Assembly: GCA_910575815.1 (NCBI GenBank)
Contig: CAJTFN010000007.1
Coordinates: forward strand, 62,001 to 126,000
Reading direction: 5' to 3'
DNA from: Oscillospiraceae bacterium
Lineage (GTDB): Bacteria > Bacillota > Clostridia > Oscillospirales > Oscillospiraceae
Length of the DNA stretch: 64,000 bases
In this document: one piece after another, positions 7,594 to 57,947 of the stretch
How the letters are laid out: each line of letters starts with the position of its first letter
How positions within the stretch are numbered: position 1 is the first letter of the stretch
Notes under the pieces: generated by a model
The model's input: only the letters and a program-made list of their open reading frames with translations
The model's database searches: none
What the model was told of the DNA's origin: nothing
Made by a program: the position numbers and the translations under genes

Positions 7594-10500
7594 TTATCCC
7601 AGGGCGGTCCACTGTTCCGTGGAGCCGTTCATGCTGAAGCTGTGCCCGTTGGACGCTTCAACAATGTCCCAATAGTACCACGCGCTGGTGGGAACATCGG
7701 AGAAGGTCTTGTAGCCCTTCACCACGGTGTCGGCGCTGGCGCTGCGGCCCAGGATACGGTTGACCATCACGATTGTCTCAGCGCGGGTGATATTCTGGTC
7801 AGGCCGGAACGTGCCGTCCGTGTAGCCGTAGACCAGACCGTTTTCCGCCGCCAGATTGATGTACTTCCGCGCCCAGCAATGGGAAATATCGGTGAAGCGG
7901 TCCAGAACGGTGTTATTGCCGCTGCTGTCACAGAACCGGGCAAGGATCGTTGCCAGCTCCGCACGGGTGATATTCCGCTGGGGACCGAATGTGCCGTCCT
8001 GGTAGCCGGTAATCACGCCCATGTTGCAGAGGGTGGAGACGGCGGTGCCGTACCACGCTCCGGCGGGAACGTCCTTAAAGCGGTTGATGTTGGTGCCGTA
8101 GGCGGCTTTGGCCTCCGGGGTCAGCAGCCGGTAGAGGATGGCCGCAACCTCGGCGCGGGTAATGTCGGCATTGGGGGCGGCCTGGGTGTTGGTCCGTCCG
8201 GCGATATAAGCGATATGGTCCTTTCGGTTCAGCAGGGAGAGCTTGGAGCCGGGAGTGGTCAGATCACCAATGCCGCCCGTGCTGCCGCCCTTGGCAATCG
8301 TGACCTTCTGGACCTGGGAGGCCATTTCAGAGGCGGTGGCCGCATAGCGCACCTCGTATGTGCCGGGAGCCAGTCCCCTCACGGTGTTCCCCGCGATAGC
8401 GGTCCACTTGCCGTCAGGCAGGAGCCGGTATTCCATGGTCTTATCCGTCTTGGTGAGAGTGCCGTCATTCCGGCCCTGCCGGGTTTCATCGGTGTGGCCC
8501 ACGCTGGGAGCCTTGCGGCGGTCGGGAATCTTCACCGTGACCGTCTCACCGGGCAGGCCGTCACCCTTGCCGGGGTAGCGGATAAGAACATCCTTCCCGG
8601 CCAGATCGGACACGTCCAGAGGGTTCGGGCAGGGCTTCCAGGTCTTGCCGCCGTCCGTGCTGTACTCCATATCCGGCGTGGTGTTCAGCGTCTCATTGTC
8701 AGGGTCAAAGACCAGCACAGGAGCGCCGGGGTGCTTGGAGATCACCACGGTGACGGTCCGGCTGGCAAAATCCGTTTTGGTGGCGGGGAACCGGAACAGG
8801 ACCGTCTTGCCCAGGTAGTCAGCGGTGTTCAGTGGCTTTTCCAGAGCGGCCCATGTTTTGCCGCCGTCAGCGGAAAACTCCACGCCCTTGTCGGAGCTGA
8901 CGGTCTGGGCCTTGCTGTCCACCTCCTCCTTGGGGGCATCCCGGCGAGTGGGAATCTGGATGGTTACACCGCTGCTGGGGAAGGAATCGCTGTTCCCGTG
9001 ATTGCGGATGATAATTGTCTGCCCGGTCAGATTGGACACGTCCAGGGGCTTGGTGCAGGGGTTCCAGGTCAAGCCGCTGTCAATGGAGCAGTCCATATCC
9101 GTGGTGGTGTTCACTGTCTCGGTAACGGTGTCCAGCTCCACCACGGGATTCTCTGTACGGTTAGGAATCCGCAGTTCGGTGGCATCGCTGGCGAATTTAT
9201 CCTCGGTCGCCGCCTCCCGGACGAGGATGGTCTGGCCGGTCAGGTTGGAAACATCCATATCTGGGTCACACTTGGTCCAGGTTTTGCCGCCGTTCGTGGA
9301 ATACTCCATAGCGGCAGTGGTGTTCACCGTCTGCTTGTCCCGGTCAATGGTCAGGTCGGGCTTTGCGCCCTTCTGCGGGACCTTCACCAGCACGGGCAGA
9401 CTGGCGAAGTGGTCAACATCGTACTTCTCCCGGACAGCCAGCTCCTTGCCGTAGAAGCTGGACACATCCAGACCATTAGCGGGCACAGTGGTCCAGCCGT
9501 TCTCCGTTCGGTACTCCGGCGCGGTGCCGGAGACGGTCAGCAGCTCCGCCACACGGTCAATGTCGGCGGTGGGGGCGGCGTTCCGGCTGGGGACGGTCAG
9601 GGTGGCGGTGTTGCTGGCGGGGTTGGTGCCGTCACAGGCATAGCGCACCAGCAATGTGGCGTTGGTCAGCTCGGACAGGTCCATGTTGTCCAGGCAGGGA
9701 ATCCAGCTTGCGCCGTTGTCTTTGGAATACTCCATAGCGGCGGTGCTGTCCATACGCTCAGTGGCATTGTCAATAGTCAGCACGGGAGCCACGCCCCGGA
9801 CGGGGACGGTCACGGTGGTGGGGTCGCTCTTAAAGGAATCGTCCGTGGCAGCGATGCGAACCAGCAGCGTCCCGCCCTGCCGGTCCTCCACGTCCTGATT
9901 ATCGGTGCAGGGTTTCCAGGTTTCGCCGCCGTCATCGGAATACTCCATGCCGGTGGTGGTATTCATGGTGAAGTCGAAAGGATTCACCTTCACGTCCGGG
10001 GCGGTGGGACGCTCCGGCAGAACCTCCATGACCACGGGTCCGGGGTTGCCGGTGCCATCATCTACCAGACGGACATAGATAGTCGAGCCGGGGATGATCT
10101 CGCCGCCGTTGGACAGATCATCGGTCAGGGTGTAGTCCTTCCCGGCCTCCACCACATCGGGGTCAAAGGTGATGATCTCCTTCCGGTAGTCAATCTCATA
10201 GTTCAGCCCCGTGTCGGCCACGGTCCGGCCCTCCACGCTCTGGCTGTCAGAGGCGGTGAGGTTGTCCGTCTCCTTCATCCGCTGGGTGAAGGTATAGGAG
10301 GTATCGGGGGTCAGGCCGGTAAACTTGGGGCTGTCCTGCCAAGTCTCGCCGCCGTCCATGCTGTACTCCGCGCCGGGGACGGGGTTCAGCGCAATGGTGG
10401 TCGTTGTGCGGCGGGCAATGGTGGGGGCGGTAGTCATGGCCTGCGGTGCTTTGGAGATGGTCATATCCGCGTAGACCTGTTCGGCGGTCAGATCGTAGCC

Positions 10501-32188: not shown

Positions 32189-33658
32189 TTACATAACCGC
32201 CCGTTTCGGCTCCTGGCGGGGCAGGCTGGCGGCGGTAGTGAAGATACCGCGCTCCATGTCCTCGGCCCGTAAAGCGGCCCTCTTTGCGTCCATGACGGGC
32301 TTGCGCTTGATGCTGTACCGCCGGTCATACTCCTGCTGCTTTCCGCTGGCCTTGCGGCGAAGATATGCCTGATGCAGCTTGTCCCGCCGTTCCTCCCGCC
32401 TGCGAAACGCCTCCTGTTCCTCCGGGGTCAATTCTGCTTCCCGGAAAGAGGGGGGTATGTATCTGCCCACAAAATTGAAGTAGATTTCAACCGTCTGTGT
32501 GGTGTCCTGGCATCCTTTGCGGTCGCGCTCATGGACAAGGATTTTATCGACAAACTCATTGAGCATAGTGTTCGTCATGGTGCCAAAGCCTTGGTATTTG
32601 TCAATCAGGGCGATAAACTTTTCCGCCGATTTCTTGCCCTGGTCGTAACTGCTGACGGCCTTTTCCAACTGGGTGATTTCAGCGGCAAGTTCCTCCTGCT
32701 CCTTGGCGTACTGTGCGTCCAGAGCGGCATACCGGGCATCCGGCAGACGGCCCAAAGCGTTGTCCTCATAAATTTTACACACAAGCCGTTCCAGCTCTCC
32801 GGCTCGTTTCTGTGCCGCTGCCAGCCGCCGCCGTTTTTTCCTGATGTCGCTGTCCTGCTGGCTGGCCTGGGCCTCCTGCACTTCCCGGATGAACGCCGCC
32901 CGGTCAGACTTGGCGTAATCGCTGATGGCTTGGAGCATATCAGACACCAGGGACAAGACTATCTTTTCCGCGATACGATGCTGGGTAGGACAGCGAGTGC
33001 CAACGGGGACTTTGCTGTATTGGGAGCAAGTGTACTGCGGGGTACGCTTGCCGTTGTAGGTGCGGTGAACATACATCTTGCCGCCGCAATCGGCACAGTA
33101 GATCAGCCCGGTCAGCGGCGCGGCCTCACCAAAACCGTCCGCATAGCGTTTGGCGTTGCCCCGGATTCGTTGCACACTGTCGAAGGTTTCCTGGTCGATG
33201 ATGGCCTCATGGGTATTCTCGAAAATTGTCCACTCGCTTTCATCAACATAGTGGCTTTTCTTGTCCTTGAAATGCTTTCGGGTCTTGAAGTTGACAGTAT
33301 GGCCCAAGTATTCCCGCCGTTTGAGGATATTGACAACAGTGGAGGTAGACCACTGGCAGGGGTCTTTGATGTCCCTAGTCTTGTGCAGGCCCTCGCCATG
33401 CCGCGCCATGTGGACGGCTGGCATCTCGATTTTGTCAGCAGTCAAGCGGCTGGCAATTTGGAAAGGCCCGTAGCCCTCCAAAGTCATGGCGTAGATGCGC
33501 CGTATCACGTCAGCGGCCTCGTCGTCCACAATCCAGTTTTCCCGCTTTTCGTCCCAGAGGTAGCCATAGGGAACAAATCCGGTCAGGTGCTTTCCACTCA
33601 TACCCTTGGCCTTGAATACCGACTTGATTTTGCGGCTCGTGTCACGGGCATAAAATTC
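32189..33658 (-). pseudogene. Serine recombinase of E2, C-terminal piece
   Basis: Reads EFYARDTSRKIKSVFKAKGM at its start, the junction between catalytic and recombinase domains. It has the recombinase domain (GFVPYGYLW..., GYGPFQIASRL), a zinc ribbon (YCADCGG, then TCSQ and TRC), a coiled coil near the middle and a basic tail. The catalytic domain is missing: E3 is inserted at 33658. Joining this to the piece ending at 39646 restores Asn-Ile-Met-Leu-Glu-Phe-Tyr-Ala. About 22 foreign residues are fused in front, so a short product could still be made. Confidence 0.92.
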
Positions 33659-33784
33659 GAATGCCACCCTCTCATAAAGAATGACACTACACGCAGGACA
33701 TAGCATCCCTGTTACCCCCGACAAAGTTATTCCAAGCCGAACACCATATTATCGGAAACGGCTACCAAAAACATTTTATAAATG

Positions 33785-37991: not shown

Positions 37992-39617
37992 ATGCAGGAA
38001 AAATACAATGTCGGAATTTATTGCAGGCTCAGCCGGGACGATGAGAGAACCAGGGAGTCCGTGTCCATCGAAAATCAGAAAATCATGCTCAGCCGCTATG
38101 TGCAGGAGCAGGGATGGAATCTCTACGCCGCCTACTGCGATGACGGGGTCTCCGGGACAACTTTCGACCGGCCCATGTTCAACCAGATGATCGCCGATGC
38201 CAAAGCCGGGAAAATCAATCTGATACTCTGTAAGGACCTCAGTCGTCTGGGCAGAGACTACATTGAGGCTGGACGGTTTACGGACATCGTGTTCCCTTCG
38301 ATGGGCTGCCGGTTTATTGCCCTGAATGACGGCGTGGACACCATCCACAAGAACAATGAGATGCTGGTGATTTTGAAAAATGTCATGAACGACCTCTATG
38401 CACGCGACACCAGCAGCAAAATCCGCGCCGTCAAACAGTCCACCTTTCGGACGGGAAAGTATGTCGGCTGCTACGCTCCCATCGGCTACCGAAAATCTCC
38501 AGCGGACAAGCACATCCTGGAAATCGACCCGGTGACCGCCCCTGTCGTTCTCCGCATCTTCGATATGCGCTTGCAGGGGGACAGCTTTCGGAAAATCGCC
38601 CGGACGCTGAATGAGGAGGGCGTACCCTCTCCCCGCAGCTTCTACTACATGGCGGAGGGCAGGCCGAACCTGCGGGGCGAGACGCCCTACTGGAACGATG
38701 TGACGGTCAAGACCATTCTTCGGAATGAGGTCTACCTCGGCCACATGGTGCAGAACAAGACCGGCACCGTTTCCTACAAAGTCCACAAGCAGGTGAGCAA
38801 GCCGAAAGAGGACTGGATCAAGGTGGAGCATACTCATGAGGCACTTGTCTCCCAAGAGGTCTGGGATGCAGTTCAAAGGCTGGACAATCATCCATCAAAG
38901 GGGCGCTCTGGCAGTGATGGAGTGATCTCTCTGTTCGCCGGCGTTCTCTACTGTGCGGACTGCGGCGGCTCTATGCGGTATCAAAGGGATTACCGCAGCC
39001 GGAAGCGCCATACCGATGGACATTTTGGCGAGTTTCAAGCCTACACTTGTAATCGGTATATGAATGGAGGCAAGGCGGTTTGTACCTCGCACTACATCAA
39101 CTGCAAGGTGCTGACGAAGCTGCTCTTGCTGGACATCCACGCCAAGGCGATGCTGGCGCAGAACAGTCCCACCGCCCTCAAGGAGAAAATCCTGGCGCAG
39201 AAAAACGCTGCCAGCATGGAGCAGACAAAGGCACTCCGGGCAACGCTGGCGGCGGTGGACAAGCGGCTGGCGGAACTGGAAAAGCTGGTGGTTGCCGCCT
39301 ATGAGGATAAGGTGAAGGGCGTCATGCCGGAGGCACTGTGCATCCAACTGATGAACCGCTACGAGAACGAACGCCGGAGCAAGCTGGAACAGCGAACGCA
39401 GCTCACCGCCCAGCTGGAAGCCACCCAGGAGGACGAGCAGGCCACCGACGAGTGGTTGGCCGTCATCAGGGATTATGCCCAGCTTGAGGAACTCGACCGC
39501 CCCACCCTCCTGCGGCTGGTAAAGCGCATCGAGGTAGGCGAAAAGTACGAAATCGCCGGGGAGACCCACCGGGACATCAAAATCTATTACAACTTTGTCG
39601 GGTATGTGGAACTCTGA
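37992..39617 (+). CDS. Large serine recombinase of E3 (TnpX-like)
   Basis: 541 residues, complete. Catalytic domain at 1-140: YCRLSRDDE (Ser 14), DDGVSGTTFDRP, LCKDLSRLGRDY and YARDTSSKIR at its end. Recombinase domain about 160-300 (APIGYRKSP...), zinc ribbon (LYCADCGG, then CNRY and CTSH), coiled coil about 395-440, and a C-terminal YYNFVGYVEL as usual. It should excise and insert E3 at GA-core sites. The stop lies 28 bases inside the right end. It is the only intact integrase in the window, so E3 is probably still mobile and could act on related ends. Confidence 0.95.
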   Translation: MQEKYNVGIYCRLSRDDERTRESVSIENQKIMLSRYVQEQGWNLYAAYCDDGVSGTTFDRPMFNQMIADAKAGKINLILCKDLSRLGRDYIEAGRFTDIVFPSMGCRFIALNDGVDTIHKNNEMLVILKNVMNDLYARDTSSKIRAVKQSTFRTGKYVGCYAPIGYRKSPADKHILEIDPVTAPVVLRIFDMRLQGDSFRKIARTLNEEGVPSPRSFYYMAEGRPNLRGETPYWNDVTVKTILRNEVYLGHMVQNKTGTVSYKVHKQVSKPKEDWIKVEHTHEALVSQEVWDAVQRLDNHPSKGRSGSDGVISLFAGVLYCADCGGSMRYQRDYRSRKRHTDGHFGEFQAYTCNRYMNGGKAVCTSHYINCKVLTKLLLLDIHAKAMLAQNSPTALKEKILAQKNAASMEQTKALRATLAAVDKRLAELEKLVVAAYEDKVKGVMPEALCIQLMNRYENERRSKLEQRTQLTAQLEATQEDEQATDEWLAVIRDYAQLEELDRPTLLRLVKRIEVGEKYEIAGETHRDIKIYYNFVGYVEL

Positions 39618-47639: not shown

Positions 47640-48355
47640 AATCTGTCCAGCGGTACGCAGACAGTTGCAATATATTCGCCGGGACACAGGTTATATAGAT
47701 GAAATGTTCAAAATGGTGAAAAATTGTTCCAAACGCAGAAGGAGCATGTTTAAGCCCGGAATCCACAGTATTCCGCGGTGTGTCGTCAGTCTGGCTCGGC
47801 CTTGGGTTCGGCCCATGGTCCGGGAAAAAGCCCACGCTAACACTGAATTTGGCTCATATCTGCATATCAGTTGATGGACGGCTATGCCAGGATCGAACAG
47901 CTGGACTTTGAACCGTTTAATAAATCGGGAAATTGGGGAGCCTCTGGCGGGCCGCCGTCCGGTATCGAGAGTACTATGGTTATTATCCGGAACGCATTCA
48001 GGCAGACAAGATCTACCATAGCCGCCAGACGCTGGCCTTTTGCAAAGAGTACGAGATTCGTCTATCTGGCTCCACTTTGGGCAAGCCGCCAAAAGATTCG
48101 CTCCTGTCCCGTCAGACAAAGAAACAGGAGTATCAGGACAACTGCGACTACGATGTTGCGGAGGACATTTTCGGCGCAAGTAAGACCACCTATGGTCTGG
48201 ATAGCATCATGGCATATCTGCAAGAAACTATTGTCAGTGTTATTAGCGTTACCTTGTTGCTTTTGAATCTCCCCAGATTCCTCAGGACCGCTTTTGCTCT
48301 CTTCTGTCCCTTATCTGTGATTATTGTTTTGCCAGGGTTGCGGAGCAGAATCTAG
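47640..48355 (+). pseudogene. Decayed IS5/IS1182-type DDE transposase
   Basis: Pieces in at least two frames: MDGYARIEQLDFEPFNKSGN, then YREYYGYYPERIQADKIYHS, RQTLAFCKEYEIRLSGSTLG and GASKTTYGLDSIMAYLQETI. This is the C-terminal half of an IS1182-like transposase. Frameshifts and loss of the N-terminus show it is long dead. It marks the left border of the six-gene operon. Confidence 0.75.
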
Positions 48356-48427: not shown

Positions 48428-48456
48428 TTGCGTTTGAATGTCTGATTTAGTATAAT
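48428..48456 (+). promoter_or_regulatory. Promoter of the six-gene operon
   Basis: TTGCGT (48428-48433), 17-base spacer, TATAAT (48451-48456), then about 95 bases to the first gene. The -10 box is perfect, the -35 box matches four of six. It is the only clear promoter before the NUDIX gene. Confidence 0.72.
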
Positions 48457-48550
48457 GTGTATCATCTTTGAGCTGAAATGTGAGATCAGAGAGTAAAAAT
48501 AGCTGGGGGAACAATGGAGAGCGGCTTCTGGCGATAAAGGGGAAATCAAA

Positions 48551-49000
48551 TTGCCTAACGTAGAATTAACTAGCATGTGTGCCCTGATATCAGAGGGTAA
48601 AGCGCTGATGATCGATAGGATAAAATCATGGCCGGGCTGGACGTTTCCGGGAGGCCACCTGGAATATGGGGAAAGCATGACGCAGTGCGCAGCCAGAGAG
48701 CTTCTGGAAGAAACGGGGCTTTGCGTGAAAACCTTGAGGTTCAAGGGCGTGGCGAATATTTTTAATACCGTTACAAAAGAACGGCATATTATCTTCAATT
48801 ATGTGGCGGAGGGTTTTACAGGAACGCTTGCGGCGGGTGGCGAAGGGCGCGTCGCCTGGATCGACCTTGATAAAATCCCAGGTCTTCCCCTAGCGGAGGG
48901 AATGGAATACCGTCTGCCTCTCTTCCTGGCGGAGGGGATTCAGGAGCTTTACATAGAATGGGATGAGGAAAATCACTATACGAAGGTGGAGTACCATTAA
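48551..49000 (+). CDS. NUDIX hydrolase
   Basis: 149 residues from TTG 48551 (AAAGGGG seven bases upstream). The NUDIX box is complete: GGHLEYGE (34-41) and RELLEETG (49-56). NUDIX enzymes cleave nucleoside diphosphates linked to another group, e.g. 8-oxo-dGTP or nucleotide sugars; the substrate here is unknown. First gene of the operon, 16 bases before the SIS-HAD gene. It could remove a product or misused substrate of the other enzymes, or be an ordinary housekeeping enzyme caught in the operon. Confidence 0.85.
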   Translation: MPNVELTSMCALISEGKALMIDRIKSWPGWTFPGGHLEYGESMTQCAARELLEETGLCVKTLRFKGVANIFNTVTKERHIIFNYVAEGFTGTLAAGGEGRVAWIDLDKIPGLPLAEGMEYRLPLFLAEGIQELYIEWDEENHYTKVEYH

Positions 49001-49016
49001 CTGCGAGGTGGATCCC

Positions 49017-50936
49017 ATGGGAAAAGATTTTGAGAGAGAATTGCAGAATCTCGACTTGATTTATCAAGGAGCCTTTGCCGGGAATATTGAGGTTCTGACA
49101 GACTTTTTGCAAAAATACATCCACCTGCCCTTCCTCGGCGTCGGGTCGGGCGGCTCTCTTTCGGTGGCGCATATTTTTGAATACCTTTGTGCCAAAAGCG
49201 GGGGAATCGCAAAAAGCCTCACTCCTATAGAGCTGACTCTTTTTAGTAAACAGATGCGGGAAATGGCCGTGTTGCTGTTTACGGCGGGGGGGAGGAACAA
49301 GGACTCCATTCATGCTTATCAGTATCTTTCGGAATTAGAGCCGGAAGGCCTGCTGACGTGCTGCATGTGTGCCGGTGCGCCCATCAAGCAGCTTCAGCGG
49401 AACAATCTGCACAACGACTACTTTGAATACCGGATGCCCGTGCCGAAGGACGGCTATTTAGCGGTGGAATCTCTTGTGTCATCCATGGCGCTGCTGTGCC
49501 GGGCATTTGAAGGCCTGACGGGAAGTGGTTTTTTCAGCCTTCCGGAAACGGTTTCCTGGGGCTCCCACGGGCCCGGGCCAGAGCAGATGGAGTCTATACT
49601 GGCAAAGGAAACCCTGATTGTTTTGCATGGTGGGATCACGACGCCGGCGGCCATTGATTTGGAATCCAAATTCAGTGAGGTTTCATTGGGAAATATCCAG
49701 CTCGTGGACTTCCGGAATTTTGCTCACGGGAGGCACTACTGGCTCTCTGATCGCAGGGACCGCACGGCCATTGTTTCCATGGCGGGGACCTCCATGGAGA
49801 AAATCGCGGACAAAACCCTGGGACTACTTCCGCAGGATATCCCAGTCATCCGCTTTGATGTCGGAGATGCAACGGTCGATGGACTCTTTGCATCCTTTGA
49901 TTTCGTTTTTCAGCTTGTCTTACAGGCAGGCCTGCTTCGCGGAATTAATCCCGGAAAGCCTAAAGTGGCTGATTTCGGGAAAAAGCTCTATCATCTGAGC
50001 TATAATATATGCAATCAAGAAGAGATGAAGACCCGAAGAAAAGATCCCGTCGCCATGGCGGTATATCGAAAATATAGAGGCGTCCGATGCCGCGACGAGG
50101 AGACGTACCGAAAGGCGGGGCTGGATTATCTGCGAAAGCTGGCGGGCAGGACCTTTAAGGGTGTCATATTCGATTACGATGGGACGTTATACAATAAGCA
50201 TGGGGGAGAGGCTGAGGGAATCGCGGTTTTCGAACGGTTAAACCAGCTCCTTTCCCGGGGGATCAAGATTGGAATTGCTACTGGCCGGGGAAAATCCGTG
50301 CGGAGCGAATTGAAAAAGGTGATTTCAGAGGACTTCTGGCAGGAAGTTGTGATTGCCTATTATAATGGCGGTTGTATAGGATTGCTGGGAGACGACCGAC
50401 AGCCGGATAAGGAGGCCGCGCCGGTTCCCGAGGCCTTTGACGAGTTGAAGCGGCGGATGGACCTCGTATCCGAGCTGAGCCTGCTGGAGATTGATGGGAT
50501 CGCAGACAAAAATCCGTTCCAGTGGACGATTTTTATGGATACGTACCAGAGCGCCTCTCAGAGACGAAAACTGTTCTCTCTCTGTGGCAGCGTTTCCGGC
50601 ATCAAGACGGTTCAATCGAGCCACTCGGTGGATATCATTCCGGAAACAAGTAGCAAGATCAATATTTTCGGATATTGGAGCGGGCTTGGATACACGCGGG
50701 ATGATTTTATTGTAATGGGCGACGCGGGGCAGTTTGGAGGCAACGACTATGAATTGCTGAATTGCCCGTGTGCTTTAAGCGTGGACCGCGTATCGGAACA
50801 AATGGATGCTTGCTGGAATTTCGCAAAACCCGGCATGCGGAATTTGGAGGCAACCTTGTACTATCTGGAGCATTTTGAGACGCGTGAATGGGGAGAGCTC
50901 TGTTTGGACCTAAAGGGGTGGAACTATGAAGTATGA
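49017..50936 (+). CDS. SIS-HAD fusion: phosphosugar isomerase-type domain with phosphatase
   Basis: 639 residues from ATG 49017 (GAGGTGG upstream). Residues about 1-335 look like a double SIS domain: FLGVGSGGSLSVAHI near 40-53, then LIVLHGGITTP at 200-210 and TAIVSMAGTS at 250-259. Residues about 378-620 are a Cof-type HAD phosphatase: FDYDGT (385-390), TGRG (422-425), Lys in SSKI (547) and GDAGQFGGND (568-577), all catalytic positions present, with a C2-type cap between. SIS domains bind or isomerise phosphosugars, so isomerisation plus dephosphorylation of a sugar phosphate is inferred. Overlaps the next gene by 11 bases. Confidence 0.85.
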   Translation: MGKDFERELQNLDLIYQGAFAGNIEVLTDFLQKYIHLPFLGVGSGGSLSVAHIFEYLCAKSGGIAKSLTPIELTLFSKQMREMAVLLFTAGGRNKDSIHAYQYLSELEPEGLLTCCMCAGAPIKQLQRNNLHNDYFEYRMPVPKDGYLAVESLVSSMALLCRAFEGLTGSGFFSLPETVSWGSHGPGPEQMESILAKETLIVLHGGITTPAAIDLESKFSEVSLGNIQLVDFRNFAHGRHYWLSDRRDRTAIVSMAGTSMEKIADKTLGLLPQDIPVIRFDVGDATVDGLFASFDFVFQLVLQAGLLRGINPGKPKVADFGKKLYHLSYNICNQEEMKTRRKDPVAMAVYRKYRGVRCRDEETYRKAGLDYLRKLAGRTFKGVIFDYDGTLYNKHGGEAEGIAVFERLNQLLSRGIKIGIATGRGKSVRSELKKVISEDFWQEVVIAYYNGGCIGLLGDDRQPDKEAAPVPEAFDELKRRMDLVSELSLLEIDGIADKNPFQWTIFMDTYQSASQRRKLFSLCGSVSGIKTVQSSHSVDIIPETSSKINIFGYWSGLGYTRDDFIVMGDAGQFGGNDYELLNCPCALSVDRVSEQMDACWNFAKPGMRNLEATLYYLEHFETREWGELCLDLKGWNYEV

Positions 50937-52041
50937 GTTGGCTGAATCGATTCTGGAAAGCACTATGCAGCACTGGGATATGACGCGAATGAGCGAAGAG
51001 ACAAAAAACATCCAGATCATATCGGAAATCAAATATGATGATTACCAGCAATACACGCACGGGATGCGTTATGTGGAGAGTTTGGCCCTTTGGCTGCGCC
51101 AGTTTGACAGCGAAGAGGATAAAGAAACTGCGTACCGGGCGGCGAAGGACCTCCTGATCTACATATCGGAAGAAGAGATGCGGCAGCTTGTGGCCTACGC
51201 CTTTCCCATCACCATGAAACAATTCCTGCTCCAGCGAACAAAACGGTTCTGCGAAAAATACGGAATCTCCGATTTGGAGGATAGAAAGAGTCTTTACGCG
51301 TACTTCAGGCGGTGCAGCATGTTTTTGGGATTAAGCGACGGCGCCCACATGGACTTTTTCCGGCGGCAAAACCGGGAATTGAGTAATGAGCAGGTATTTG
51401 TTCATTATGATTTTTCTCAGAGCAAAGCAGAGGATATGATAAAAAATCTAGAAAAAGACACAAGCGTCCAAAAGATGATAGAAAAGTACCCTGGAAAGCT
51501 GTCGGCCCAATTCTATACGTTTTTCCTGATGGATGATTTTACGGGAAGTGGAAAGAGTTATATCCGAAAAGACTCCGAGGGATGGCATGGAAAAATCAAA
51601 AAGTTTTTTGAGCGTCTGGAGAAAATGAACTTCCGTGCTGCGGAGGCAGAGATACACCTTGTGCTGTATGTCGCGACGGCCAAGGCCTTGAAAAACATTC
51701 AAACACAGGCGAATTTATTTACGGCGGAAATGGGCTGGAAGCCCATTTCCGTAGATGCCCTTCAAATCGTAGAGCCGCTGAACTGGGAGAGCCACAAAGC
51801 GTTGTTGGATCTGCTGAAGCGAAATTACGAGCGGTGCCTTGGGTTTGGCAAGGCCTCTTATGAGGATAAGCATTTCACGATCGGCGGGGGACAATATCCG
51901 TACCTTGGCTTTGCCGATTGCTCGCTGCCCTTGGTTTTATATCATAACACGCCGAACAATACCCTCCCTGTTCTTTGGTATTCCTGGGAAGAAATGGTTT
52001 GTCCCTTATTCCCGCGCGTAACAAGACATAAGGAGAACTGA
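50926..52041 (+). CDS. Phosphoribosyltransferase-like protein
   Basis: 371 residues from ATG 50926 (AAAGGGGTGGAACT upstream). Hydrophobic strand FFLM followed by DDFTGSGKS at 203-211 resembles the PRPP-binding loop of type I phosphoribosyltransferases (DD..TG.T/S); LVLYVATAKALKNI near 245 would be the next strand. The N-terminal 150 residues are helical and without known domain. I recall a conflict-associated group called PRTase-CE with this look, but cannot verify it. It would transfer or sense phosphoribosyl groups. Two bases separate it from the ATPase gene. Confidence 0.7.
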   Translation: MKYELAESILESTMQHWDMTRMSEETKNIQIISEIKYDDYQQYTHGMRYVESLALWLRQFDSEEDKETAYRAAKDLLIYISEEEMRQLVAYAFPITMKQFLLQRTKRFCEKYGISDLEDRKSLYAYFRRCSMFLGLSDGAHMDFFRRQNRELSNEQVFVHYDFSQSKAEDMIKNLEKDTSVQKMIEKYPGKLSAQFYTFFLMDDFTGSGKSYIRKDSEGWHGKIKKFFERLEKMNFRAAEAEIHLVLYVATAKALKNIQTQANLFTAEMGWKPISVDALQIVEPLNWESHKALLDLLKRNYERCLGFGKASYEDKHFTIGGGQYPYLGFADCSLPLVLYHNTPNNTLPVLWYSWEEMVCPLFPRVTRHKEN

Positions 52042-52042
52042 T

Positions 52043-53944
52043 ATGATTTGGAAGAACCCGTTTTTATCAAAGCATAGCGAACAGCAGATGGGAGAAGAGC
52101 AGTTTTTATCCTTGTTTGATTGTACGGCGCTCCAGATTGTCAGCGAGGAAAATTTGGAGAAGGTCAGCTTTGTTTCCAGTTCTCCCGGCGCCGGAAAGAC
52201 CTCGCTTTTTCGCGCGTTTTCCTCGGAGGTTTTAAGCAAAATCGTGTCCCCCGCATCCAATGACCTCTATAGAGAAATTCGTCGGCAGATGGAGCGCTTG
52301 GGCGTGGTCCAAAATGGGCGGGTTGTGCTGGCCAGCGCAGCCCTGTCCTGTGCGAGGGGGTACACCATTATTGATGAAATGTTTCAAAACGGGAGAAGAA
52401 AGCAAATATTCTTTGCGTTGTTGAATTATAGAATTGCCATTTCCATACTGAAAAACATCGGACATTTGCTGGAGCTGGAACCGGGGGACTATGAACAGAT
52501 CCAGTTTGCACAGATACCCCAGGAGATGGCAAGCGACGAGGCCTATTTTAAAAACGGGAAAACCATGTACAACTGGGCGTGCCAAGGTGAGCGCGAGTTA
52601 TGCAAATACCTGGACAGTGAACGGGATACCCCCTATGAGGTATCGTTCGTTCACACAACGCTGCTGCTTTTGAAGCTGTTTGAGCCGGAAAACATATTGG
52701 TGAACGGAGAACCCTATTTTCATAATGTGCTGATTATTTTCGATGATTTTCACAAGCTCACGGATAATCAGAAGGACATCATCACCGAAGCGGTGTATAC
52801 GCTAAAAACCAGCATCGGTGTTTGGCTCGGCCAGCGGCTGGAGGGCTTTAAGGATGAGCATTTGATTTCTATGGATGGAAGCCTGAGCCGAGATTACAAC
52901 CCCAATATTGTAATTGACAACTACTGGCCAAAGAAGAAAAACGTGTTTTACGGCATGTTGGAGGAGATTGCAGACAGGCGGATCAAGGAGGCGGGCTTAG
53001 AGGGTTATTTAAAACTTTCAGATTGCATTTCCAATGAATTAGAGAGCAAAAGATATGAAAAAGCCTGGAATCATTTCAGCAAATTGGAACGGGAGAAGAT
53101 TGACCGGAATCTGGAGGCCTCCTGCATTTACAGTGAAATCATCTCTTGCATCGACGGGCGAAAAGACATGCGGGTATCGGAACGGGCGATTTGGTACGAG
53201 TGCATCGCGATACTGGAAAACCGGCGGGCGGCCAAGGAACAGATATCTCTTTATCTTGGAGAAAAAGTAACACAGGCGGACTTTGAGGCCTTCGTAGACA
53301 AATACGCGGATGTCGCGGAGTATTACGTGTGCTGTCGAGCGGGAATCCCGTTCTACTATGGGATAGGCAACCTGAAAATGCTGTCCTCCTATAATGTCGA
53401 GCAATTCCTGTATTTTGCCGGGGCTTATTTTGACTGCTGCCGGGTAAAGAGCATGGATCACAGGCGCAGGCAGAAGCGAAAGCTGAGCGCGGAGGAGCAG
53501 GGAAAGGTCCTGGAAACGGCCGCAAGGAAAAAGTGGGCAGATATGGATTACCGCTACGCAAACATCAGAAGCATCAAAGAGTTTTTGAACAATATAGCCG
53601 CCTTGTGCATGCGGTCCAGGGATGCGGAACAGGCCGCATACGCCGGCGGTTCGTACACGGGAATTGGTGTGAAGAAGATCGTATTGCTTCAATGCCTTTC
53701 TGATCCGAATTGTGATGAGTTGGTAAAAATCCTGGGCGCGTGCCTGGCTTCCAAATACCTGGAAAGAAGAGACATCCAGGACGAAAATATGGTGCTGTTT
53801 TACCTGAACCGGTGGCTGTGTGTATATTACGGCCTTCCCCTGGCCTATGGCGGATGGGCAAGATGCAACATGCAGCGGCTCATCTCGTTTTGCGGCGGCC
53901 GGGCCGATAGTGACGAGGATCAGTTGGAAATCGATTTTCTTTGA
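52043..53944 (+). CDS. AAA/ORC-type P-loop ATPase
   Basis: 633 residues from ATG 52043 (AAGGAG upstream). The opening NPFLSKHSEQQMGEEQFLSL is followed by Walker A SSPGAGKTS (46-54) and Walker B VLIIFDDFH (229-237); RRIKEAGLEG lies further on. The layout resembles ORC/CDC6-like or STAND-type ATPases of conflict systems: short N-terminus, ATPase core, long helical C-terminus (about 330-633). Probably the switch or sensor of the operon. No nuclease or membrane domain is seen. It is between the PRTase-like gene and the unrecognised gene at 53954. Confidence 0.8.
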   Translation: MIWKNPFLSKHSEQQMGEEQFLSLFDCTALQIVSEENLEKVSFVSSSPGAGKTSLFRAFSSEVLSKIVSPASNDLYREIRRQMERLGVVQNGRVVLASAALSCARGYTIIDEMFQNGRRKQIFFALLNYRIAISILKNIGHLLELEPGDYEQIQFAQIPQEMASDEAYFKNGKTMYNWACQGERELCKYLDSERDTPYEVSFVHTTLLLLKLFEPENILVNGEPYFHNVLIIFDDFHKLTDNQKDIITEAVYTLKTSIGVWLGQRLEGFKDEHLISMDGSLSRDYNPNIVIDNYWPKKKNVFYGMLEEIADRRIKEAGLEGYLKLSDCISNELESKRYEKAWNHFSKLEREKIDRNLEASCIYSEIISCIDGRKDMRVSERAIWYECIAILENRRAAKEQISLYLGEKVTQADFEAFVDKYADVAEYYVCCRAGIPFYYGIGNLKMLSSYNVEQFLYFAGAYFDCCRVKSMDHRRRQKRKLSAEEQGKVLETAARKKWADMDYRYANIRSIKEFLNNIAALCMRSRDAEQAAYAGGSYTGIGVKKIVLLQCLSDPNCDELVKILGACLASKYLERRDIQDENMVLFYLNRWLCVYYGLPLAYGGWARCNMQRLISFCGGRADSDEDQLEIDFL

Positions 53945-53953
53945 GGAGTCAGC

Positions 53954-55039
53954 ATGAAAACTTGGAAAGACAGCCTCTTTTTAGAAGGAAAACGAAAAAT
54001 TGCGGAATATTTCCAGGGGCAGGAGCAAGTCCTCCTCATTCTTGGGCATGGATTTGACCCGAGAGCCTGTAAGGTTGCGGAGGTCTTGACAGAAGCGGCT
54101 CCGTCTCTTACTGTCTGCTTGGTGGATTATAATGAGACAGGCATCGGCAAAGATACCAAAAATAAGTCGCGCAGCATGAAGAACTATGAAGCCATCCTAA
54201 AAATATGCCAAGGCGTCACTCTGCTTGAGCAGCGGATCCCCATGTATCGGGGAGACAGCCTGAAGAAGATCTTAGTAATTTCAGAAAGCGTCCGAGCCCA
54301 GTTCAGCAGGCAATTCATATCGGGCTATCAAACCATTGTGATCGATGTCAGCGCGATGCCGCGCGGTGTCGGGTATAGTATCATCAAACGCCTGATCGAT
54401 ATCAAGAGTGAGACGCAGAAGCTGTGTGTCGCCGTATGTGAAAACAGCAAATTTGACGACATGATCAGGCCGGTGATTGTAGATGAGTCGGCGGAATATC
54501 TGCCGGGGTTCAACACATTTTCCATGCTTCTGGAACAGGACGACGGGGAAACGGTCTGGTTTCCTGTCTTAGGTCTGGATGATATCACCGCATTTCATAT
54601 CATCGATGATTATCTGAAGCCTATCGAAATATGTCCTGTCATCCCCTTTCCGTCAAAGGATATACAGCGTGGTGAGAGGATCCTGCGCTCCTGCGGCGAG
54701 GCGCTGTTCAGAGAGCGGAACGTGGAAAAGCGAAACATTATTTATGTCCCCGAAAATCACCCCTTGTGGGTTTACCAAAAGTTATATGATACGGTGCGGT
54801 ATTACGAAAAAGCCCTTCATATTGATCAGGACCGGGTGATTAAATACGCATTTTCCTCGCAGTCCAGCAAGCTGATTGATATCGGCGTGCTGCTGGCAAT
54901 TATGGATTTGGCTAAGGAAGGGATCAAAGCTGGAATTGTAGTTGTTGAAAATCAGGGCTATCAAGCGGAGAACACGTATCCGGAAAAGGATGAGGAGTTG
55001 TATTGCCTCTGCCTGGACGACAGTATATTTGCGTGGTGA
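53954..55039 (+). CDS. Unrecognised alpha/beta protein of the operon
   Basis: 361 residues, ATG 53954 with TTGAGGAGTC upstream. I do not recognise the family. The start has a strand-turn pattern VLLILGHGFDPRACKVAEVL (26-45), then SLTVCLVDYNE, and a second strand TIVIDVSAMPRGVGYSII (127-144); the end has GIKAGIVVVENQGYQAENTY. This resembles a Rossmann-like nucleotide-binding fold, with GHGFDPR (31-37) and DVSAMPRG (131-138) as likely functional motifs. It could be a sensor, an effector enzyme acting on nucleotides, or a scaffold. Ten bases after the ATPase gene, five before the kinase gene. Confidence 0.65.
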   Translation: MKTWKDSLFLEGKRKIAEYFQGQEQVLLILGHGFDPRACKVAEVLTEAAPSLTVCLVDYNETGIGKDTKNKSRSMKNYEAILKICQGVTLLEQRIPMYRGDSLKKILVISESVRAQFSRQFISGYQTIVIDVSAMPRGVGYSIIKRLIDIKSETQKLCVAVCENSKFDDMIRPVIVDESAEYLPGFNTFSMLLEQDDGETVWFPVLGLDDITAFHIIDDYLKPIEICPVIPFPSKDIQRGERILRSCGEALFRERNVEKRNIIYVPENHPLWVYQKLYDTVRYYEKALHIDQDRVIKYAFSSQSSKLIDIGVLLAIMDLAKEGIKAGIVVVENQGYQAENTYPEKDEELYCLCLDDSIFAW

Positions 55040-55043
55040 AGAA

Positions 55044-56060
55044 ATGAAAACAGATGAACGATGTATTTTAGGAGCTGGTTTTCTTTGCGTTGATATCATA
55101 CAGCGACAGGAGCGCAGGGCGATCGCACTGGGCGGAACCGCCGCAAACGTCTTATCAATTTTGTCCAAGCTGGGGCGGCGGACTGTTTTTGTCAGCGCCG
55201 ACTATGACGATGCCTGGGGGGAATGGCTGAAGGTTGCCCTGAATGCCAGGAATATTGACGTTTATTCCTTCTCAAAAAGTCGAACAGCAGCACCAAGGGT
55301 CATAGAGATTTTGGATGAACGGACAAGGAAGCATCACTTTCAAACCGTCTGCCCGGTTTGCGGGAGGAGCCTGTCCAAGGTGATCCTGCCGGACAGAGCC
55401 CACGTGAAGGACAGTCTTGCGGTGCATATCAGGAGGGCGAATATCTTTTACTATGATAGAATTTCGCCTGGAATCAGGGAAATCGCGGAAAGGAATCAAA
55501 ACGGCTGGAATTTTTACGAGCCCAATGCATGTAGGAGCTACCGGGTGTTCCTGGATTCGCTGAGGAAGGCGAATATTTTAAAGTTCTCTCAGAGCAGAGT
55601 GCCTCAGGCTTATATGGAGCGGCTGACCGATGATTTGCGGAGCTCGGAGGTACAACTGATCATCGTTACCATGGGGGCCAGCGGTTTTCGCTTTTCCTTT
55701 CGGAAAGCGGATGATCTCTTATCGAAATGGATCGAGGTGCCACCCAAAAGAGTGGAAAACATGGTAGATGACTCAGGGGCCGGAGATTGGCTGACTGCAG
55801 TTTTCCTGCATTACTTTTTGGAGCGGTATCCGGTATATTCTGACGGGCTGGACAAGGAGGCGTTGCTGGAGATGCTGAATGCGGCAAAGGAAATCGCAGC
55901 CTTAAAATGCAGTTTCATTGGGGCCCAAGGTATTTTTCAGGATCAAGATGGCCTGGAAATGCTGAGCCGCAGACTGGGCGTGCCCGTCGCGCCGGTTTCC
56001 GATGCGGTGCTGGACTGGGGAGAAGGATGCCTCTGCTGCGGAAGGCGCTCTATTGGCTGA
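55044..56060 (+). CDS. PfkB-type carbohydrate/nucleoside kinase with CxxC insert
   Basis: 338 residues from ATG 55044. PfkB signatures: GGTAANVLSILSKLG (30-44) and DDSGAGD (242-248), the anion hole and catalytic Asp. PfkB kinases phosphorylate ribose, fructose phosphates or nucleosides with ATP. Unusual are a CPVC pair (103-106) in the lid region and a CLCCG near the C-terminus, which may bind zinc. The start is five bases after the previous stop. With the SIS, HAD and PRTase-like partners it fits a pathway on a ribose-type phosphate; substrate unknown. Confidence 0.82.
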   Translation: MKTDERCILGAGFLCVDIIQRQERRAIALGGTAANVLSILSKLGRRTVFVSADYDDAWGEWLKVALNARNIDVYSFSKSRTAAPRVIEILDERTRKHHFQTVCPVCGRSLSKVILPDRAHVKDSLAVHIRRANIFYYDRISPGIREIAERNQNGWNFYEPNACRSYRVFLDSLRKANILKFSQSRVPQAYMERLTDDLRSSEVQLIIVTMGASGFRFSFRKADDLLSKWIEVPPKRVENMVDDSGAGDWLTAVFLHYFLERYPVYSDGLDKEALLEMLNAAKEIAALKCSFIGAQGIFQDQDGLEMLSRRLGVPVAPVSDAVLDWGEGCLCCGRRSIG

Positions 56061-56493: not shown

Positions 56494-57805
56494 AAGGAAT
56501 ATCATGAACGAATACTATGCCCGCGATATTTCCAAGAAGCGCCGGATCGTGAACAAGATGAAAGGCAATTCCGGCGTGCCGCTGTCTCCGCCTCCCTATG
56601 GCTACATCAAGAACCCGGAGGACCCCCTCTTTTGGGTAATCGACCCGGAGGCCGCCGCCGTTGTCCGGCGTATCTATCAAATGGCCCTGGACGGCTACGG
56701 GCTGGCAGAAACCGCCGCCGCGCTGGAGAAAGATGGGGTGTTCAATCCCACCTACTACTGGCGGAGCAAGGGAACCAGCCGGGGCGGTTCCAAAAGCACC
56801 GTGGAGCCCACCAAATGGGGGCATACCACCATCAAGAAAATTCTCACCTTGCAGGAGTATTGCGGTGACGTGATTAACTTCAAATCCTACTCCAAGTCCT
56901 ACAAGATGAAAAAGCGGATTGAAAACCCGGAGGAGAACCGGGCAATCTTCCTCAACGTCCACGAGGCTATTATCGACCGGCCCACCTGGGAAAAGGTGCA
57001 GAGCATGAAAAAGGGGACCCGCCGGAGGCGGCCCACCGTCACCCAGGAACCCAGCGTGTTTTCCGGCTATTTGAAATGCCCGGAGTGCGGCGGCAATCTC
57101 AATTTCCACTTCAACCAGGGCAACCACGACATTAAGTTTTTCAGTTGTCAAAACCACAATTCCGGCCTGCGCAAGTGCTCCAAGACCCACTATATCCGGC
57201 TGGAATTTCTGGAGCGGGTGGTGCTGTATGAGGTGAACCGGCTGGCCAGTTTCGCCAATGAGTACGAGGACGACTTTATCAAGGCGATGATGGGCCGTTC
57301 CGCAAAGGTGACGGAGAATGAGCGGGCCAGGAAACAGCGGGAGTTGGATGGGCTACTGGCGCGGGACAAGGAGCTGGACGGACTGTTTGAGAGGCTTTAC
57401 GAGGACAACGTGAGCCAGAAGATCAGCGATGCCCGGTTTGCGAAGATGTCCCAGCGGTATGAGCAGGAGCAGGGGGAGAACGCCAAGAGGATCAAGGCCC
57501 TGCGGCTGGAGCTGAAAAAGAGCAAGGGCAAGCGGATGGACGTTGACACGTTTCTTGAAACGGTCCGGCGGTACACCAACGCCACCGAGATTACCCAGCG
57601 CATGGTGGCAGAGCTGATTGACCATATTGACGTGTACCATACAGAAAAGCAGGACGGCGTTACCACCCAGCACATCACCATCTATTACAACTGTATCGGC
57701 ACTTTCTCCGTCCCTGACTGCCGGAAAATCCCGGCTGCGGAGATCACAATGGGGACGAGAAAGGGAGTAGCCGTCAGCTACTCCCCGGAGCGGATCGCCG
57801 TATAG
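56494..57805 (+). pseudogene. Serine recombinase C-terminal part (R0)
   Basis: Begins NIMNEYYARDISKKRRIVNK at the end of the catalytic domain; the catalytic part is missing. Recombinase domain (PPPYGYIKNPE, DGYGLAETAAAL), zinc ribbon (LKCPECGGNLNF, SCQNH, KC), coiled coil about 265-330 and YYNCIGTFSVPD end are complete. From ATG 56504 433 residues could still be made. The junction lies at GA-ATATC just before the NIM codons, nearly the same place at which E3 split the E2 recombinase. The N-terminal half should be to the left and is not in the window. Confidence 0.85.
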
Positions 57806-57822: not shown

Positions 57823-57872
57823 ATGCGGAGTGTCCTCCAAGGATACTCAAATCCTATAAGGACACTCCGCAT
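57823..57872 (-). terminator. Terminator downstream of tRNA-Pro
   Basis: 14-base perfect arms ATGCGGAGTGTCCT and AGGACACTCCGCAT, followed leftward by TATTTTTGC. Ends the tRNA transcript and may also stop the converging recombinase remnant. Confidence 0.85.
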
Positions 57873-57947
57873 GGTCGGAGTGCAGGGACTCGAACCCTGG
57901 GCCTCCTGCTCCCAAAGCAGGCGCGCTACCAACTGCGCAACACCCCG
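57872..57947 (-). tRNA. tRNA-Pro (anticodon TGG)
   Basis: 76 bases including an encoded CCA. Acceptor CGGGGTG pairs with CACTCCG (one G.U), the D-arm contains AGTTGGTAGCGCG, the anticodon stem-loop is CCTGC-TTTGGGA-GCAGG with TGG at the centre, and the T-arm has GGTTCGAGTC. It marks the end of accessory DNA and the start of chromosomal genes. Confidence 0.95.

Follow-up and report, generated by a model that had tools for sequence, protein, structure and literature searches.

An operon that combines enzymes of sugar phosphates and nucleotides with an ATPase raises the question whether it serves metabolism, signaling or defense. Such an operon is located in a stretch of 64,000 nucleotides from an Oscillospiraceae bacterium (assembly GCA_910575815.1, contig CAJTFN010000007.1), which as a whole is called the window here. 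It comprises six open reading frames (ORFs), all on the plus strand, at positions 48551-56060, the place and strand given in a preliminary description made from the sequence letters. The genes code for a NUDIX hydrolase (g1), a SIS-HAD fusion protein (g2), a phosphoribosyltransferase (PRTase, g3), an ORC/Cdc6-type AAA+ ATPase (g4), a CARF protein (g5) and a PfkB-family kinase (g6). Genes g2 to g6 form one unit, and we put the probability at about 0.5 that this unit is a horizontally moving, nucleotide-centered conflict system of two modules, with a trigger, a chemistry and an anti-phage output that are proposed below.

Gene content of the operon

The ORFs follow each other with gaps of +16, -11, +1, +9 and +4 bases from g1 to g6, taking the likely starts of g2 (49017) and g6 (55044), and the run with overlaps and tiny gaps that had been described was thus found again. 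The assignment of genes to the NUDIX, HAD, PRTase, ORC and PfkB families was likewise recovered with Pfam, and that of the SIS part by profile comparison. Gene g1 (48551-49000), which starts with TTG, encodes an accessory NUDIX hydrolase (PF00293, E 3.8e-20) with a Nudix box that is complete as judged by eye. Gene g2 (49017-50936; the ORF is listed from 48963, the likely start being the ATG at 49017) encodes a fusion of a GlmS-like double SIS part and a HAD phosphatase. The HAD half is recognized by Pfam (PF08282, E 1.8e-8), and the SIS half, missed by Pfam, is visible at the profile level only, through GlmS-like SIS proteins in the PDB (8eol/3hba, E 2.7e-9; 4qjb, E 1e-6). The g2 family profile aligns to 8eol over positions 19-314, and HAD phosphatases match after position 314. 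A heptose-type pathway composed of SIS, PfkB and HAD enzymes, for which we take GmhA, HldE and GmhB as the enzymes to compare, was considered and rejected, as the HAD part is nearer to Cof/HAD-IIB than to HAD-IIIA models and no nucleotidyltransferase is encoded among the six genes.

Gene g3 (50926-52041) codes for a PRTase-CE phosphoribosyltransferase. It matches PF24390 (E 6.2e-24) with 85.7 bits at a gathering cut-off of 27, its phosphoribosyl pyrophosphate (PRPP) loop DDFTGSG is intact, and its profile gave no match to PDB sequences at E up to 1. It is followed by g4 (52043-53944), which encodes an ORC/Cdc6-type AAA+ ATPase of 633 residues with intact Walker A and Walker B motifs. This protein exceeds the gathering cut-off of the ORC-CDC6-like family PF24389 (E 7e-14) and represents a distant clade of it, in which 39 of 44 alignment rows match the family (best E 4e-35).

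The g5 protein (53954-55039) had been described as unrecognized and Rossmann-like. This has to be replaced, as g5 belongs to the CARF superfamily and is a stand-alone tandem CARF protein of the CARF6 family, both by its sequence match (PADLOC CARF6, E 2e-67) and by its fold. In a second structural comparison the 19 best rows were all CARF or ring-nuclease proteins, including Can1, Csm6, Can2, and Card1. No effector domain was seen in g5, and its profile has one chance-level match among PDB sequences (E 0.59); 179 CARF6 relatives were found in a protein search. The ATPase had been suggested as the sensor of the operon, but since the formerly unrecognized protein is a CARF-type ligand sensor, the sensor of any compound is more likely g5.

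Finally, g6 (55044-56060; the ORF is listed from 54942, the likely start being the ATG at 55044) encodes a PfkB-family kinase (PF00294, E 1.6e-12), for whose profile a fructokinase is the best PDB match (E 6.6e-19). In addition to the CARF6 match of g5, PADLOC recognizes g3 (PRTase_III-A, E 6e-19). No PADLOC model matches g2, g4 or g6 at E up to 0.1, and the operon does not fall into a known PADLOC defense system with models for all of its genes.

Linkage of genes g2 to g6

Relatives were collected by scanning one genome per species (84,980 genomes) with the PRTase profile. Among the 113 relatives obtained, the 80 best loci were retained. All of the genes g2 to g6 are recognizable in 71 of the 80 loci, one or more of them being fragmented in L007, L016, L031, and L036. 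In the remaining nine loci the contig stops on that side where the gene is missing, leaving at most 1172 bases; the most room is found in L055 (1172 bases, filled by a DUF4143 ATPase) and L079 (539 bases). Genes g3 and g4 are present in all 80 loci, g2 in 79, g5 in 74 and g6 in 73. NUDIX relatives at the position of g1 were identified in four loci, all of them from Clostridia, and the core therefore consists of five genes, with the NUDIX gene being optional. Of the six-gene unit that had been proposed, the unit traveling on mobile DNA stands and the number of genes is reduced. Genes that are normally unlinked had been named as a result that would speak against the proposal; for this PRTase clade the opposite was found.

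The order g2-g3-g4-g5-g6 is present in 62 loci, whereas in six loci g2-g6 is followed by g3-g4-g5, and in three loci g6-g2 is divergent from g3-g4-g5. Gene trees were built from 67 full-length five-gene sets out of 84 searched (65 genome loci, one IMG/VR contig and the window). Their path distances correlate with r 0.85-0.91 within g3-g4-g5 and with 0.74 between g2 and g6, but with 0.56-0.70 across these groups, and the rearranged gene orders are split between the same two groups. The operon thus consists of two co-evolving modules, PRTase-ORC-CARF and SIS-HAD-PfkB. In our reading g3-g4-g5 is one working complex, and g2-g6 is a metabolic pair which feeds or relieves it.

The fact that the best agreement is among the trees of g3, g4 and g5 also fits another explanation, according to which the PRTase itself is a toxic effector restrained by ORC ATPase and CARF protein, while SIS-HAD and PfkB recycle spent sugar phosphates and no new messenger is made. 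The match of g3 to the retron model PRTase_III-A is in line with this, as is the DprA-PRTase pair, which defends against T7 and lambda and whose PRTase is proposed to be the effector (PMC9122126, in part). However, SIS-HAD and PfkB, with their misses located at contig ends, equal the PRTase in constancy and are more constant than mere helpers need to be, and the CARF protein argues for a soluble ligand. An effector role of the PRTase therefore appears unlikely.

Conservation of catalytic residues

The enzymes of the operon should be catalytically competent, as predicted from the HAD, SIS, PRPP-loop, PfkB, and Walker residues, which are invariant or nearly so. In the PRTase, D203, D204, F205, and G209 are present in 67 of 67 rows and S208 in 66 of 67. 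The SIS residues G46, G47, E217, E222, H238, and G239 are found in 56 of 56 rows, and we assume for the Glu and the His-Gly among them the catalytic roles that they have in GlmS. In the Cof-like HAD part, with the motifs DxDGT, TGR, Lys and GDxxxxxxND, D387, D389, T391, G424, R425, K548, D570, N577, and D578 occur in all 56 rows and T423 in 53. The GG and GAGD motifs of PfkB (G30, G31, D242, G245, G247, D248) are complete in 46 of 46 rows, and the Walker residues of g4 are present in all or nearly all of 44 rows. The alignments comprised 55 of 66 sequences for g2, 43 of 67 for g4, 40 of 68 for g5 (with eight database proteins in addition) and 45 of 67 for g6, each together with the window. Loci L001, L040, L041, L043, L045, L051, L055, L058, and L072 as well as the copy of the window were omitted from alignment or neighbor lists as near-copies or cut.

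Source of the CARF ligand

CARF receptors are known for reading the cyclic oligoadenylates of type III CRISPR systems. The CARF6 protein of the operon might accordingly be an ancillary receiver of cyclic oligoadenylate from a type III system elsewhere in the cell, and the fold match of g5 to Can1, Csm6, Can2 and Card1 would suit such a role. In the own genome of the operon, searched for the Csm1 family and not for Cmr2, no Csm1-type Cas10 was found. Host genomes of 50 of the 58 loci first chosen were searched for the Cas10 palm; it exceeds the cut-off in seven of these 50 and does not do so in the other 43, while at E 0.001 there are matches in 13 of the 50. These counts may be too high, because the family used (PF22335) also exceeds its cut-off in an E. 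coli control; in favor of an ancillary role, each search covered one Cas10 family and the completeness of the host genomes is not given. With the palm in only seven of 50 hosts and no Csm1 in the own genome, type III CRISPR cannot be assumed as the ligand source in most hosts, and the Cas10 that would mark an ancillary protein was not found in the Csm1 search of the own genome. Furthermore, no effector domain is fused to CARF6. The plain ancillary role was rejected as very improbable.

Distribution and mobility

The five-gene system spans 12 phylum-level groups, three of them archaeal, and a concatenated tree of 62 of the 67 gene sets joins loci across phyla, e.g., L022 (Armatimonadota) with L032 (Acidobacteriota). 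Close to its host the system is rare. Apart from the own genome, a single one of 98 relatives has the PRTase, in a copy interrupted by stops. In a search of the phylum with the SIS-HAD profile 103 of 398 genomes match; the own genome alone scores high (1.7e-211), the next match has 5e-11, and the other matches listed cover only part of the profile.

In addition, the PRTase is encoded on 18 plasmid records, and all five genes were present on each of the three that were opened. On the Sphingomonas plasmid (L084) the PRTase gene is located at 9001-10107. Three IMG/VR contigs carry the PRTase; two of them have the complete set of five, and the third has four genes, as g2 is cut by the contig end. 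The IMG/VR stretch L082:18-6087, from the same contig as L142, encodes PRTase, ORC, CARF and PfkB with a NADAR-type gene just downstream. A tblastn search of g3 in a phage collection gave no match, by which phages are not excluded. Copies with stops or frame breaks, in which sequencing errors are possible, were found in L007, L031, L016:11134-13077, L036:8096-10005, and G034:C30:3467-4577; they might be as expected of a costly or decaying system.

This distribution also bears on the view that the genes form an ordinary salvage operon for sugars or nucleosides with a mislabeled regulator. The NUDIX, HAD, PRTase, and PfkB superfamilies do hold many housekeeping members, but the operon is very rare and patchy, lies on plasmids and occurs across the 12 phylum-level groups. 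It includes no transporter gene among the six, its CARF and ORC-type proteins are constant, and it matches no recognizable catabolic operon; a known catabolic or biosynthetic operon of this composition had been named in the preliminary description as a result that would contradict the proposal made there. A salvage function was rejected and is the least probable of the explanations considered.

The conflict system proposed for the window likewise sits in a mobile-element setting, as had been claimed. Upstream of the operon there are genes typical of plasmids or integrative and conjugative elements (TraG, two RepA_N, ParA, ParB, Mob_Pre, and serine recombinases). Next to it the two remnants that had been pointed out were confirmed, namely a piece of a transposase upstream (47933-48352, plus strand; DDE_Tnp_1_2, E 1.8e-16) and a truncated serine recombinase downstream (56504-57805, plus strand), which matches PF07508, PF13408 and PF14287 but lacks the Resolvase domain PF00239. 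It is followed by a tRNA-Pro(TGG) gene on the minus strand (57872-57947, ARAGORN), which is likely the attachment site. Two genomes of the own genus, G033 and G014, share the stretch from the recombinase through tRNA-Pro with 92% and 80%, respectively, and have no PRTase match; in G014 the recombinase frame extends upstream past the shared part. From this it follows that the operon probably occupies the end of an integrated element with an N-terminally truncated integrase. Another serine recombinase ORF that lacks the Resolvase domain is located at 32189-33724, with a full-length one nearby at 37992-39617. As judged from the recombinase ORFs without this domain, the element in the window carries several decayed integrases.

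A single promoter had been proposed for the operon. The promoter-like sequence TTGCGT-17-TATAAT at 48428-48456 on the plus strand, read by eye, is plausible, but it was not listed by a consensus scan, which found 14 promoter-like sites in the region compared to 8.7 (sd 3.0) in shuffled sequences.

Accessory genes and neighborhood

Several loci contain further genes within the operon. L014 contains a NADAR gene (Pfam E 3e-26), to which blastp found relatives in L023, L048, L051, L067, and L082, and a further one is annotated on the Sphingomonas plasmid. Genes for a dCTP-deaminase/dUTPase-like protein (DCD) are found in L008 and L022. NUDIX, NADAR, and dUTPase-like enzymes act on nucleotides or nucleotide sugars, and a nucleotide-type product of the operon therefore fits. 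AbiEi/AbiEii toxin-antitoxin genes or pieces of them are present in L066, L068, L069, and L074, and blastp relatives in L070 and L072. They are located between the CARF and the PfkB gene (L066:6298-7901, L068:14193-15194, L069:10974-12575, L074:4251-4907); the AbiE loci are labeled as Prevotella, Bacteroidaceae or Bacteroidales, and L074 as Gastranaerophilales. In L050 an AAA_14-DUF4143 ATPase gene precedes g6, and in L055 such a gene follows g5. On the Sphingomonas plasmid, genes for a nucleoside 2-deoxyribosyltransferase-like and an Mrr-like protein are located upstream of the operon (L084:3320-4728).

The neighborhood of the loci suggests an environment rich in defense genes. Two genes upstream of the operon, GajA is encoded in L027 (E 4e-195) and a subunit of a type I restriction system in L016 (E 6e-162); immediately upstream, BrxL is encoded in L056 (E 2e-128) and Fic in L059. 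Among 150 neighboring proteins Pfam identified phage integrases in four and relaxase, AbiEii, GmrSD, ResIII, Fic, and PIN in two each, while a Pfam scan of further neighbors in L033, L021, and L055:2677-4152 gave no matches.

A possible wider class of ORC and CARF-like proteins

The ORC family was followed beyond this PRTase clade by searching 345 genomes from the phylum to which Chitinophaga belongs with PF24389. Of 89 matching genomes, many with short N-terminal stretches, 23 exceeded the cut-off, and six loci were opened, three with strong members (L173, L174, and L175; E 7e-93 to 2e-114) and three with weaker ones (L176, L177, and L178). The top-scoring locus L173 (E 2e-114) has the order PRTase, ORC, CARF-like as in the operon of the window, and its PRTase matches the g3 profile (E 9e-14). 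A CARF-like protein follows the ORC gene in four of the six loci (L173:7147-10995, L174:6804-10783, L175:6692-10703, and L177:5888-10623), and none was seen after ORC in L176 and L178. Compared with the CARF6 profile by hhalign, the CARF-like family of L173, which includes L174 and L175, reached a probability of 94% (E 2e-7) and the set of L174, L175, and L177 one of 85% (E 6e-6).

The enzyme that precedes the ORC gene varies. Labels given by eye are a calcineurin-like phosphoesterase for both L174 and L175, methyltransferase-like for ORFs that precede ORC (L176, L177) or the PRTase (L173), and kinase-like for the N-terminus of the ORC protein itself in L177. No SIS-HAD or PfkB profile match was found in L173 to L178, and L178 matches none of the operon profiles. 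As the preceding enzyme differs between loci, ORC and the CARF-like protein are likely the constant core, of which the operon in the window is the most elaborate form seen here. An ORC-type ATPase next to a CARF-like protein and an interchangeable enzyme provides a handle for finding further systems.

The methyltransferase-like ORFs, which lie directly upstream of ORC (L176, L177) or of the PRTase-ORC pair (L173), raise the further idea of a base modification of nucleic acids with a restriction arm, in which a modified precursor would come from the PRTase and the sugar enzymes and ORC would serve as an anchor like BrxC. This would agree with the BrxL gene directly upstream of the operon in L056 and with BrxC being an ATPase of the ORC/Cdc6 clade (PMC12839542, in part). 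Nevertheless, neither a methyltransferase nor a nuclease is encoded in ten intervening genes from eight loci or in the six genes of the window, and there is no place for a CARF sensor in such a scheme, which is considered improbable.

Proposed mechanism

For the two-module conflict system the following course is proposed. The ORC/Cdc6-like ATPase would recognize the nucleic-acid state of an invader and switch on the PRPP-dependent PRTase, which would make (or use) a phosphoribosyl or nucleotide-like compound. This product might be bound by the CARF protein, which would set the threshold of the response, while SIS-HAD and PfkB may make, supply or clear the phosphosugar part of the compound. The NUDIX, NADAR, and dCTP-deaminase/dUTPase-like hydrolases could serve as an off-switch or as nucleotide-depleting effectors, and the response would stall or kill the infected cell. 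The trigger, the reaction, the direction in which material passes between the modules and the anti-phage outcome are inferred here.

Several points weigh against this system. The fold matches of g4 tie among several AAA+ groups, and plain Foldseek placed generic Rossmann proteins above CARF proteins for g5, with Cam1 in 11th place (probability 1.00). The loci were anchored on the PRTase, and the linkage holds for its clade and not for PRTase-CE at large (2942 relatives). The identity of the PRTases in the loci falls as low as 32%, so that different chemistry is possible between lineages. Since many of the hosts are metagenome bins, in which foreign contigs may occur, not all phylum labels are safe. 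The excess of PADLOC matches in the neighborhood, which speaks for the system, is a crude contrast: the first 150 of 173 flank proteins matched 246 PADLOC families compared to 31 matched by 143 control proteins (25 stretches from 15 host genomes), but families were tallied instead of proteins, and the positions of the control stretches were chosen for convenience. A single GajA protein matched 73 families, and part of the excess is thus redundancy; each family was matched by at most two of the 150 neighbors. Of ten neighbors examined singly, three match a defense model and seven do not.

Tentatively, the two-module system may be carried one step further, to an account that is possible rather than probable. 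The operon would make its own non-cyclic messenger, a phosphoribosyl- or sugar-based nucleotide, which is read by the tandem CARF protein without CRISPR or a nucleotide cyclase. It would thereby form a branch of the wider ORC and CARF-like class, present in bacteria and perhaps in archaea, whose interchangeable enzyme is a PRTase, a calcineurin-like phosphoesterase, a methyltransferase or a protein kinase. Should the ligand be produced by the operon itself, it would be a new kind of signaling molecule in prokaryotic immunity, for which the operon names candidate synthesizing enzymes.

Comparison with known systems

The Ter-associated module contains PRTases and HAD phosphoesterases, which are proposed to make a nucleoside-type signal, and separate ligand-binding proteins (PMC7824862; PMC5512222; both in part). 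The operon resembles it in the PRTase and HAD chemistry and in having a separate ligand-binding protein. In contrast, the TerB, TerC, and TerD proteins of that module were not matched in the six genes, the sensor of the operon is a CARF protein, and its ATPase is of the ORC type.

The PRTase of retron type III-A is related to g3, and another PRTase is the partner of DprA (PMC9122126, in part). Among the six operon genes and 11 window neighbors scanned with Pfam, which are part of the neighbors, neither a reverse transcriptase nor DprA was found, and the operon lacks the reverse transcriptase beside the PRTase that defines retron type III-A. Similarity of g3 to the PRTase-like anti-phage protein DS32_1 of DS-32 (NCBIfam) is weak (E 0.048; 13 bits at a cut-off of 250), and three of 35 rows of the g3 family match this model at E up to 0.1 (best 0.0016). 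We suppose that DS-32 is one of the DS-numbered DefensePredictor systems. The name DS-32 is absent from the main text of PMC13092281.

BrxC of the BREX system is an AAA+ ATPase of the ORC/Cdc6 clade like g4, but it has 1200-1300 residues with a winged helix-turn-helix and further domains (PMC12839542, in part), compared to 633 residues in g4. The BREX partners PglZ and BrxX are not encoded among the six genes, which places the operon outside BREX.

The adjacent accessions of PF24389 and PF24390 suggest that one published description covers both families, but none was located. In the open-access literature, with most subscription papers and all preprints outside its scope, no recognizable description of the gene set was found. 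The CARF6 family, with models in PADLOC-DB, presumably stems from the CARF classification of Makarova and co-workers, and this classification of 2020 may already show the neighborhood. While g5 is a CARF6 member by sequence, the CARF protein here constantly accompanies enzymes of sugar and phosphoribosyl chemistry within one operon, in many bacterial phyla and in archaea. The parts of the operon thus belong to families which are already named (CARF6, PRTase-CE, and ORC-CDC6-like), whereas the five-gene set, with its predicted mechanism, may be new.

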